Assembly: GCA_943328885.2 (NCBI GenBank)
Contig: CALQBT020000009.1
Location: 1-17,598, forward strand
DNA: 17,598 bases
Direction: 5' to 3'
DNA from: Bordetella parapertussis
GTDB taxonomy: Bacteria > Pseudomonadota > Gammaproteobacteria > Burkholderiales > Burkholderiaceae_C
Shown here: positions 10,073 to 13,949 of the stretch, piece after piece
Layout: every line of letters starts with the position of its first letter
Position numbering within the stretch: position 1 is the first letter of the stretch
Position numbers and translations under genes: made by a program
Notes under the pieces: generated by a model
The model's database searches: none
The model's input: only the letters and a program-made list of their open reading frames with translations
Told to the model about the DNA's origin: nothing

Positions 10073-10498
10073 TCAGGGGGGAGTTCCCGCCGCTTTGGGC
10101 TCGATGATGCGGAACGTGGCCTGGCCGAAGGCGACGACGGTGTTGCGCACATCCCGGAGTTCGGCGCGCACGAACACTGTGCGTCCGGACTGGTGAGTTG
10201 TTGTCGCCAGGCACGAGAACGGGCCGTGCCGGGCCGGTGTCGGGTACTGGATGCTGCAGTCGACGGTCGCGCAGCCGCGGTCAGGAGCCAGCGAAAGCAC
10301 CGCGAAGGCCATCGTCGTGTCGATCACCGTGAACAGGATGCCGCCGTGCGGCTGACCCGGTGTGGGCCAGCACACCTGGGGGTTTGGGCTGAGGGTGGAC
10401 CGCGCGCTGCCGTCCTGCGCTTCGTGGAGTTCGATGCCGATCGTCTGGTACAGCGGGTTGACGTTGAGCGTGGCGATGCGGTCGGCCGAGAGTTCCAA
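10073..10498 (-). CDS. PaaI-family hotdog-fold thioesterase
   Basis: This 141-residue protein carries the PaaI/HotDog signature PHGGILFTVIDTTMAF, with HGG at 51-53 and the probable catalytic Asp60. The family hydrolyses acyl- or aryl-CoA thioesters in the cytoplasm. The start is uncommon. No ATG is available, and a TTG at 10498 has GGAG (complement of 10507-10510) eight bases upstream. A second TTG at 10516 is in frame but has no ribosome binding site. The gene lies 46 bp downstream of the beta-lactamase-like gene and 19 bp upstream of the MFS gene on the same strand, suggesting a hydrolase-thioesterase-exporter transcript. The family is clear; the substrate is unknown. Confidence 0.82.
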   Translation of the reverse strand: MELSADRIATLNVNPLYQTIGIELHEAQDGSARSTLSPNPQVCWPTPGQPHGGILFTVIDTTMAFAVLSLAPDRGCATVDCSIQYPTPARHGPFSCLATTTHQSGRTVFVRAELRDVRNTVVAFGQATFRIIEPKAAGTPP

Positions 10499-10544
10499 GT
10501 GGCGGGCTCCAATCAAGGTAAGAGGGCAGGCGTGGTAAGGGCGT

Positions 10545-11762
10545 TCAATCCGCCAGCGCCTGATACGTCAGGTTGCGCATCAGCGCCCGGTAGTGGCGCC
10601 GCAGTTCAGGCGCGCACAGCATCAGCACAGCGACCAGTTGCTCGGCTGGGTCGATCCAGAAATAGCTGCCGAACGCGCCCGACCAGTAGAACTCGCCGAC
10701 TGAGCCGGGCACCGGGTTGCGGCCGGGTTCTGTGCGGACGCAGAACCCCAGCCCGAAACCTTGGCCGAACTCAGGCAAAGGTGCCGATTCCTCGAACTGC
10801 GCACGCGCAGTGGCTGACACCGCGATGCCGGGCGGCAGGTGGTCGCAGGACATCAGCGCGACCGTCTTGCGCGCGAGCAGCCGAACGCCGTCGAGTTCGC
10901 CGCCGTTGATCAACATCTGCGCGAAGCGCAGATAGTCGGGTGCGGTCGAGACCATGCCGCCGCCGCCCGACAGGAAATTCGGCTTGATGCTGAGCTTGCG
11001 CGGCATCGGCGGGCGTTCGCCGGTCATCGGGTCGACCAAGGCCTCGGCGATGCGGTGGGCTTCGGTCGGCGCCACGACGAAGCCGGTGTCCTTCATGCCC
11101 AGCGGCTGGGTGATGCGTTCGGCGATGAACTGGTCCAGCGCCAGACCCGACACCGCTTCGACCAGGCAGCCCAGCACGTCGGTGGACATGCCGTAGTCCC
11201 AGACGCTGCCGGGCTGGTGCTGCAAGGGCAGGGCGGCGAGCTTGTCGATGAACTGCGCCGAGGTCTGGTTTCGGTCTGCTGGTTCCACCGCGCGGTAGGC
11301 CTGCTTGACCAGCGAATCGCCATAGTGTCCGTAGGTGATGCCCGAGGTGTGGCGCAGCAGGTCGTGGACCGAGATCTCGCGCCGGGGCGCTTCAAGTTTG
11401 AGGACTGTTGCACCCGTGGCGTCGACCGTTTCGACGCCGACCTGCAGGTCTTTGAGCGCTGGCAGGTAGGTCGACACCGGGTTCACCAAGCGAACCAGTC
11501 CTTGCTCGACCAGCATCATCACCGCCACCGAGACCATCGGTTTGGTCATCGAGGCGATACGAAAGATCGAGTCGACCTCCATCGGCAGCCCTTTTTCCCG
11601 GTCGCGGTAGCCGAAGGCTTCGAGGTAGGCCAGTTGGCCGCGCCTGGCGATCAGCGCGACCGCGCCTGGAATCGAGCCTTTTTCGACATCTTGCTCGAAC
11701 GCGGTCTTGATGCGCAGCGCGCGCTCGGGCAGCAGCAGCTTGGGGTTCGAGGGCAGCGACAT
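10545..11762 (-). CDS. Serine hydrolase of the beta-lactamase / class C-like (EstB, family VIII esterase) family
   Basis: This is a 405-residue enzyme when started at the ATG at 11762. The nucleophile motif SxxK is IASMTKP (S71, K74), and the second motif is a tyrosine in [11 protein letters not shown] (Y190). Also present are [21 protein letters not shown] and a glycine-rich [11 protein letters not shown]. These match the Beta-lactamase (PF00144) domain of class C-like esterases and peptidases. No signal peptide is seen, so it is probably cytoplasmic and an esterase rather than an antibiotic-resistance enzyme. The ATG is preceded by AAGGA ten bases upstream. The reading frame is open without a stop into the bufB/bufC' region, so an automated annotation may report one 817-residue fused protein. 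I regard 11762 as the true start because homology to the hydrolase family begins just after it. Confidence 0.85.
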
Positions 11763-12998
11763 GTCCAGAGCGTCCTTGGTCAGCGTGGAAAGGCCGGCGC
11801 TGCGTGGGCAGTCGGACCAGCTTGAGATTATCGGCGCTGCCGGCTCCTGCGCTGGTATTGATTGATCCATTGAATCACCGGCGCAAATCTCGGTCCGGCC
11901 CTGGCCGCCCTCTTGGCGCTGCAGCACCGGGAAAGCGGCCGCCAGTGTCTTGTGGGTCGTGCCCAGCAGATGGCCGCGATAGCGGGCAAAACGCGAGGCA
12001 GCGCTGGGGCCGCGGAAAGCCTTGGGCAGTTGCTGGCCCGACAAGGCGCTTGCAAAGTCTTGCTGGAGTCGGGTCAGCGCAGGCGCCGGTATGGCCGCGC
12101 CGCCTTCGCGCGCGCCGGTCTGTGACACGCCGCCCCCCTCAGCGCGAGCCCGGGTCAGAGCCGACTCGGCGGGGCAGGGCTGTCGCATCATCGCGCGTGC
12201 GATGGCGGCTTCGGCCAGCAGCACTTCCAACGCGGGAATGTCGGTGTCCCATTCGATCAGTGTGGGCACCGGCCCTAAGCGTTGCAGCGCGCACTGGTAG
12301 AGCTGCCAGACCGGCGCGGCCACCGCAGCGCCATGGTGGTCTATCACCGCATCGGGTGTGACGAGGTGGCCGGCCAAGTGGATTTCAAGCACCTGTTGAG
12401 GCGCCACGGTGTCGATTGCCTGCAGCGCCGACTCCTGGTGGTTGCACTGGTTCACACACAGGTTGCTGACGTCGAGCAGGATGCCGCAGCCGGTGCGTTG
12501 CGCGACTTCGTACAAAAACTCGGCTTCGCTCATCGCGTCGGCGCGGTAGCGGAGATAGGTCGAGACGTTCTCCAAAAGGATGGTTTGTTGGATCGCATCC
12601 TGTACCTGGTGGACCCACTGGCAAACCAGCTCGAGCGCGGGTCGCGACAGCGGCAGCGGCAGCAAGTCATTCAGGTGCCGGTCTGCCACTGCGCCCCAGC
12701 ACAGGTGCTCGGACACCAGCGCAGGCTCTAGCGCCCTGACCAACTGCGCGACGCGCTGCAGATGCACTGGGCTGAAGCCCTGCGCCGAGCCGATGCCCAT
12801 GCCAACACCGTGCAGGCTGATGGGATAGCGCTGCCGCAACTCGAACAACACATGGCGGTCCACACCGCCTGCCTGCAAATAGTTCTCGGTGTGGACTTCG
12901 AGCCAGTCGACAGCCACTTGCTGCTGCATGAACTCGCGATAGTGGCGTGCTCTCAGTCCAATCCCAACGCCCTGCAACTGGGCCGCGCTCGCAGGCAT
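11763..12998 (-). CDS. bufB: BufB-type multinuclear non-haem iron oxygenase (DUF692/MNIO) fused to a truncated BufC
   Basis: Residues 1-270 form a complete DUF692 (MNIO) TIM-barrel, the enzyme family that modifies cysteines of bufferin precursors. Candidate iron ligands and landmark motifs are all present: SLHGVG (H63), VSEHLCWG (E97, H98), LLENVSTY (E143), [10 protein letters not shown] (D176, N179), CNH (H187), EIHLAGH (H207), IDHHG (D220-H222) and IEWDTD (E249). The iron site therefore looks intact. A linker (276-307) leads to about 55 residues of a BufC-like DUF2063 domain (308-362), after which homology stops. No stop codon follows; the frame runs on to 10545 through the hydrolase gene. 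The start ATG lies 15 bp after the bufA stop, implying translational coupling, and has only a weak ribosome binding site. The enzyme call is firm; whether the protein is made as a fusion is open. Confidence 0.85.
11907..12077 (-). pseudogene. bufC: bufC remnant (N-terminal part of DUF2063 domain)
   Basis: Residues 308-364 of the bufB frame read [12 protein letters not shown], then [11 protein letters not shown], then [12 protein letters not shown]. They match the opening helices of the DUF2063 / BufC family (LxxLQxxFxxAL, RxxxYRxxx, LxxAFPV). Family members normally continue for roughly another 190 residues with a PP-containing segment. Here the next 48 codons ([19 protein letters not shown] region) show no similarity to them, and the hydrolase gene follows. 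I inspected the other minus-strand frames of this stretch and found no displaced BufC sequence, so a deletion rather than a frameshift is likely. Confidence 0.7.
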
Positions 12999-13013
12999 CG
13001 GGAGCCGCCAGCG

Positions 13014-13279
13014 CTACTTCGTTTTCTTCTTCTTGGCTTCCTCGGCAGTCATGCCACCTGACTGTTTACAAGTGCCTTTGGCCACGTACGTCCAATCGTT
13101 TGCACTCTTGTCGGATGTGATCTGTCCGGCGCAGGAGTGCGAGCCGTTCAAAGAGGCGCAATCGTTTTGCCCAGCCTTGGCGATGCCGTAGCATTTTCTT
13201 TGGCCGCGTCGGCGCCAACGGCCGGCGCAGCGACCAGCGCGGTCAATGCTGCGGCGAGCAGGATCTGTCGTTTGTCCAA
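13014..13279 (-). pseudogene. bufA: BufA1-type bufferin precursor (DUF2282), interrupted by a one-base frameshift
   Basis: The start is a TTG at 13279 with AGGAGA upstream. The first frame encodes a signal peptide, [20 protein letters not shown] then VGADAAKE. The conserved core sits one frame over and begins [17 protein letters not shown], then [23 protein letters not shown] and a lysine-rich end before TAG at 13014-13016. Adding one T to the four-T run at 13194-13197 (an A on the coding strand) restores a continuous 88-residue protein with the motif KEKCYG and four cysteines at 30, 41, 50 and 71, as expected for DUF2282 bufferins. As given, the product would stop after 43 residues. Bufferins are secreted copper-binding RiPPs matured by BufB/BufC, and bufB follows 15 bp downstream. 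The frameshift may be a real null mutation or a homopolymer base error. Confidence 0.85.
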
Positions 13280-13350
13280 GTGAAGTCTCCTGAAAAAAGC
13301 GGGCGGGCGGTCTATGACGGTGGCCAGCTTAAGGCACTGACGGCAGGCCG

Positions 13351-13356
13351 ATTGTA
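13351..13356 (-). promoter_or_regulatory. Possible -10 element for bufA
   Basis: On the minus strand this reads TACAAT, five of six matches to the sigma-70 -10 box, about 70 bp upstream of the bufA TTG start. No convincing -35 box is found 16-18 bp further upstream. The promoter may therefore need an activator or an alternative sigma factor, or this may not be the promoter. Confidence 0.25.
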
Positions 13357-13421
13357 TTTCGGCGTCTTTGTCGGATTTTTTGACAAGCGCCACCTGGTCG
13401 ATCCGACCCGATCAGTGCAAA

Positions 13422-13437
13422 CCCTTGTGGACAAAGG
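13422..13437. promoter_or_regulatory. Inverted repeat upstream of the sigma-54-like promoter (candidate activator site)
   Basis: CCCTTGT (13422-13428) and ACAAAGG (13431-13437) are inverted repeats matching at six of seven positions, with a two-base spacer. A second dyad using the same half-site, TTGTC (13368-13372) and GACAA (13382-13386), lies further upstream. Sigma-54 promoters need an upstream enhancer-binding protein, for which PrsR is the known candidate in PEP-CTERM systems. The link is inference. Confidence 0.25.
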
Positions 13438-13449
13438 CATTTGGCAAAG

Positions 13450-13465
13450 TGGCACGAAATCTGCA
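13450..13465 (+). promoter_or_regulatory. Sigma-54 (RpoN)-type -24/-12 promoter for the PEP-CTERM gene
   Basis: TGGCAC (13450-13455), a five-base spacer and CTGCA (13461-13465) match the sigma-54 consensus TGGCAC-N5-TTGCA except for one base. The obligatory GG (13451-13452) and GC (13463-13464) are separated by exactly 10 bp. Transcription would begin near 13475, about 100 bp before the ATG of the PEP-CTERM gene. Expression of short PEP-CTERM genes through RpoN and the PrsK/PrsR system has been described in floc-forming betaproteobacteria, which supports the call. Confidence 0.65.
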
Positions 13466-13574
13466 ACTTGGTCGCGGCTGCGCGATCTCGACGCGATGCG
13501 CCCAGGCCCTGCTACCGCGTAGCCAGCATTGAGGGAGAGGTGCTTATGGCAGCAATGCCAACAAGGAAACTGCG

Positions 13575-13949
13575 ATGAAGCACTTCAGGAAGTCAATCCT
13601 CGCCGCCGCGCTGTCGGTTGCGTTTTTGTCGGTGCACGGGGTTGCCCAGGCAGACGACAGCAGTCCCCAGAGTGGCCAGCAGGACACAGGGAACGCACCT
13701 ACAGGCAACACCGATAGCTCCGGCGACAACCCTGGTGACAAAGGCGGCGACAAAGGCGGGGACAAAGGCGGCGACAAAGGCGGGGACAAAGGCGGTGACA
13801 AAGGCGGTGACAAAGGCGACGATGCCAATCATGCCAACACCGTCCCCGAGCCCGACAGCTTGGCGCTGGTGGCACTTGCTTTGGCGGGACTGGCGGCCTT
13901 GCTCAGGCGCGAACCGGCGCTGCAACCCAGCGCCGCCCCAGGCGATTGA
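13575..13949 (+). CDS. Small secreted PEP-CTERM sorting-domain protein with GDKG repeats
   Basis: This 124-residue exported protein has a signal peptide at about 1-26 (MKHFRKSILAAALSVAFLSV then AQA), a Ser/Gly/Asp/Asn-rich low-complexity region (27-53), and seven tandem GDKG units (54-81). A canonical PEP-CTERM signal follows: VPEP at 90-93, a hydrophobic helix SLALVALALAGLAALL (95-110) and RR at 111-112. The tail (EPALQPSAAPGD) is longer than usual, since most such proteins end at the basic cluster. PEP-CTERM proteins are exported, then recognised and cleaved by an exosortase, and short repeat-rich members are linked to exopolysaccharide and floc formation. No exosortase gene lies in the window. 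AAGGAA precedes the ATG. Divergent from bufA, it ends 37 bp from the convergent Bug gene. Confidence 0.88.
   Translation: MKHFRKSILAAALSVAFLSVHGVAQADDSSPQSGQQDTGNAPTGNTDSSGDNPGDKGGDKGGDKGGDKGGDKGGDKGGDKGDDANHANTVPEPDSLALVALALAGLAALLRREPALQPSAAPGD
13734..13817 (+). repeat. Seven tandem 12-bp units encoding GDKG
   Basis: The unit GGNGACAAAGGC is repeated seven times without interruption (84 bp). Only the third base of the first glycine codon varies, in the order T, C, G, C, G, T, T; the rest is identical. The period is a multiple of three, so gain or loss of units changes protein length without shifting the frame. The near identity suggests recent expansion by slippage. Confidence 0.95.

Follow-up and report, generated by a model that had tools for sequence, protein, structure and literature searches.

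MNIO enzymes modify the cysteines of precursor peptides. In the passages of PMC12452194 on bufferins, these use a DUF2063/RRE partner, and copper is sequestered in the periplasm. Likewise, the oxazolin system of Haemophilus combines an MNIO enzyme (HvfB) with a DUF2063 partner (HvfC). According to passages of PMC13419390, no oxazolin product is obtained if either the enzyme or HvfC is omitted, and an engineered HvfBC fusion is active.

We analysed a window of 17,598 nucleotides from Bordetella parapertussis. It is one whole contig of a draft genome (2.92 Mb, 467 contigs, 61.65% complete), whose incompleteness suggests a metagenome bin. The genome as sampled gives a single match to each of DUF2282, MNIO and DUF2063, all inside the bufferin cassette of the window. 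At this completeness and number of contigs, further copies of the cassette may be unsampled.

The Bufferin (Buf1/BufA1) cassettes in the passages of PMC12452194 have the order bufA-bufB-bufC. The window shares with them the DUF2282 four-Cys core, a signal-like N-terminal half, an adjacent MNIO_BufB and a DUF2063 remnant (Table 1). However, its precursor is split between frames and its partner is shortened. It also lacks the motif described below for the upstream region of some relatives, and the Pfam scan of 18 window frames gave no sigma-factor family. There is no sigma-70-like site in 11800-13700, and the Rfam (gathering thresholds) and tRNA scans of the window were both empty. The HvfB/HvfC system resembles the window in its MNIO enzyme with DUF2063 partner. 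It differs in the precursor family, with EGKCG repeats, and the window BufB stays below the HvfB model (220.4 of 360 bits).

The bufferin cassette of this genome has probably decayed. More precisely, the bufA sequence is divided over two frames, a serine-hydrolase gene occupies the place of most of bufC, and likely no mature copper-binding peptide is made.

Table 1. Features of the bufferin cassette and its surroundings in the window. P0001 is the closest public protein and G013 the nearest relative.
Feature	Position	Strand	Evidence
Signal half of bufA, start frame	13148..13279	-	TTG start at 13279, 43 codons and stop; matches P0001 at 26 of the 27 residues that precede the run
A run, parting point of the two bufA frames	13194..13197	-	Frame comparison and DNA alignment to G013
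Four-Cys core of BufA1 (DUF2282), other frame	13014..13205	-	First Cys at 13193, stop at 13014; Pfam DUF2282; shares 57 of 59 residues with P0001
bufB (MNIO maturation enzyme), apparently intact	12174..12998	-	Pfam PF05114, 326.7 bits; NCBIfam MNIO_BufB NF050167, 346.8 (cut-off 310)
bufC remnant, with just the beginning of DUF2063	11914..12068	-	DUF2063 positions 2-47 of 83; similarity to G013 bufC stops at about 11914
Serine hydrolase (PF00144), own ATG at 11762, in place of the rest of bufC	10545..11762	-	Pfam; comparison with G013
817-codon open frame through bufB, bufC remnant and hydrolase	10545..12998	-	Open reading frame
Thioesterase (4HBT), where collinearity with the relative restarts	10073..10516	-	Pfam; comparison with G013
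Joins of the hydrolase segment	near 11914 and 10500-10541		

The precursor gene and its relatives

The original prediction described a broken BufA1-type precursor with a TTG start at 13279, a frame change at 13197-13194 and a four-Cys core. All these elements, with their coordinates, are present as described. Searched by itself, the core piece (13205-13014) reaches 77 bits against Pfam DUF2282 (E 1.1e-21, cut-off 22.4), and its frame has the four conserved Cys. The signal-like half and the core lie in separate frames, and not in one open frame as in BufA1. No Pfam family matched the signal piece alone, and none of the NCBIfam models matched the core or P0001.

From the upstream stop at 13331 to the first Cys, the core frame has no ATG, GTG or TTG; an ATT is the only candidate start there. 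With no usual start codon ahead of the core, ordinary gene callers would probably miss it. A product started at the TTG would comprise the signal stretch plus a brief unrelated tail, and the four-Cys core would consequently not be exported.

We compared 110 loci, 30 from one search and the best 80 of 388 from another. They contain 111 bufA frames, and 110 of these cover the profile from the signal to the C-terminus in one frame. The exception, in L020, starts one position past the profile limit. L133 has no bufA; its stretch starts shortly before bufB. The nearest relative is G013 (MAG Jr-14may18-272, CANFPU010000004.1). Its cassette has the same flanking genes, the TTG start and a BufB 92% identical to that of the window. 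Unlike the window, it has an unbroken bufA frame, combines bufB and bufC in a single 579-aa protein, and carries no hydrolase in the cassette.

Dissimilarity of the relatives across the junction was named beforehand as evidence against a broken gene. What we found is similarity on both sides, and both halves align at the DNA level to the intact bufA of G013.

The two bufA frames separate at an A run, and slippage can happen at such runs. Nevertheless, a programmed slippage that reads bufA across the frame change and keeps the cassette working is scarcely credible. The run is short, it is absent from all 108 relatives readable at that place, and most of bufC is gone regardless.

When the bufA core was searched against proteins, 2143 reached E <= 1e-10, and we looked at the best 120. 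The best match among those listed is P0001, a public protein of 88 residues. It is nearly identical to both pieces (Table 1), which bears out the earlier claim that the two halves are conserved. As a side observation, one of the best 120 of the 2143 proteins, the DUF2282 protein P0047, is short. It has 59 residues, starts at the core without the signal half and is represented by three member sequences.

The existence of a near-identical whole P0001 implies that the break postdates the divergence from the P0001 lineage, or is an error. The original prediction had offered the same two options, and P0001 fits both equally. As an alternative, we considered that the frame break stems from a base-calling or assembly error: the organism would have an intact bufA, and the bufC lesion alone would be real. 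P0001 itself, the coding character kept in both halves and the draft state of the genome speak for it. On the other hand, such an error must strike by chance a cassette that is already damaged, and the control scans below revealed no clear break of a real gene among 103 genes compared with G013. We regard this explanation as rather unlikely, yet as the first of the alternatives.

Controls for frameshifts

For the controls we used 353,235 bases from this genome and 1,209,342 from G013. With the G013 frames in this genome, a strict E-value scan flagged 0 of 104, and a second scan flagged 4 of 103. One flagged query was rejected as an out-of-frame reading, since the other frame there has a Pfam glutamine-amidotransferase match. 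Another long frame lies opposite two further queries (L236 in L172, and L202 in L179); L245 is a 24-residue 5' stretch. None of the four among the 103 was judged a clear break of a real gene.

An indel scan gave 5 candidates in 94 genes. Two of the five belong to the out-of-frame query, and three are in two frames that align in one frame nearly full length. The reverse scans, with the frames of this genome in G013, gave as raw candidates 4, then 8 in 7 queries, and 13 indels. Neither forward scan caught bufA itself. It means that these controls are blind to genes this short, also where they count against an error in bufA.

bufB, the bufC remnant and the serine hydrolase

The original prediction read the cassette correctly for the broken bufA. 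However, it overlooked a second, larger lesion: bufC is shortened, and a serine hydrolase stands in its place. bufC is broken off at about 11914, after about 56 of 258 residues, and does not hold the complete DUF2063 and RRE-type domain. The remnant matches DUF2063 with 25.4 bits in one scan (below the cut-off of 27.2) and with 28.8 in another (above it). Both flanks of this lesion are collinear with G013. The hydrolase of the window is 90% identical to a G013 gene in a different setting.

That different setting, together with the draft state of the genome, could indicate that both lesions are assembly artefacts, with the hydrolase segment misjoined and the cassette whole. Against this, it would take two false joins, with the assembly coming back to one and the same locus on either side. 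Neither a second copy of the left join nor a second gene about as similar to the G013 hydrolase turned up in this genome. Likewise, there is no direct repeat of at least 8 bases between the two compared end stretches of the segment. A double artefact is thus very improbable.

An inverted match of 8 bases, AAGAGGGC, is present at the segment ends (window 11914-11907 and 10527-10520). By chance alone, some 0.6 such matches would be expected across the two orientations, and this one may therefore be fortuitous.

The 817-codon frame might also be a working new MNIO chimera, with the partner swapped for a serine hydrolase and bufA abandoned as substrate. This would be birth and not decay, and it seems to us more doubtful still than the double artefact.

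If the cassette has decayed, the loss of most of its partner would leave BufB inactive, since no oxazolin product formed when HvfC was omitted (passages of PMC13419390). Two lesions in one cassette make a real, recent decay likelier than a base-calling error. The halves of bufA and BufB have drifted little, so the decay would be young.

Selection pressure and origin

We estimated dN/dS for the pieces of the cassette. The bufB gene had a value of 0.14 (bootstrap 0.08-0.24), and the hydrolase 0.16 (0.11-0.24). The bufA core shows 0.61 (0.26-1.71), the signal half 0.70 (0.13-2.89) and the bufC remnant 0.26 (0.07-0.70). These last three pieces are short, so their values cannot separate decay from constraint. 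At 13575-13949, the window also encodes a small protein in which GDKG repeats accompany a PEP-CTERM match; it has diverged from the corresponding G013 protein (dN/dS = 0.45).

The end branch of BufB is 0.044 in the window versus 0.074 in G013, without overall acceleration. Of 59 columns in which at least 95% of 108 relatives agree, the window BufB departs at 2. Together with the dN/dS of 0.14, these values count against decay of the cassette. It presents 23 differences from that of G013, 14 of them polarisable. The polarised changes fall on conserved sites in 4 of 5 on the window line versus 1 of 9 (p 0.023, test chosen post hoc). This excess hints weakly at relaxation.

In a tree of 60 BufB picked from 109, the window and G013 are inside a clade of 25 rows, largely Oxalobacteraceae. 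The nearest row to them is a MAG labelled Acidobacteria (L099), and they stand apart from the 15 sequences of their own genus. Judged by these sequences, the cassette likely originated outside the genus.

BufB-BufC fusion and upstream motif in the relatives

In 71 of 80 loci, which were picked by likeness to the window BufB, bufB and bufC form one open frame (MNIO plus DUF2063 partner). Such frames are seen among L069-L148, and also in L062 (6487-8226). Pfam was run on three of these fusion proteins, and many fusion loci are Oxalobacteraceae. The fusion passages of PMC12452194 and PMC13419390 make no mention of a natural BufB-BufC fusion. The natural single protein is a counterpart of the engineered HvfBC fusion in the latter.

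The whole G013 BufBC model was used in a fold search. The enzyme half (residues 6-279) took up the matches, and the BufC half was therefore folded separately. A PDB sequence search with this half gave nothing at E 1.

The motif TGTAA[GC]-N14..18-CG[AT]CTA appears at most 400 bases upstream of 37 of the 111 bufA (L072 and L087, for example). Over both strands of the compared loci, 1.99 Mb gave 38 matches. It resembles the Caulobacter sigma-F site GTAACC-N16-CGAA in passages of PMC3511200. Upstream of bufA in the window and in G013, it has no match.

Significance

The literature searched, with most subscription journals outside it, gave no report of a broken bufferin cassette. The decay of a known RiPP family is ordinary and of modest interest, and the fusion in the relatives may interest specialists more. 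Small precursors broken in frame can escape gene callers. If the decay is true, this locus shows a route by which a copper-buffering RiPP cassette is lost, with the frame of the enzyme unbroken while the precursor and the partner are already damaged.
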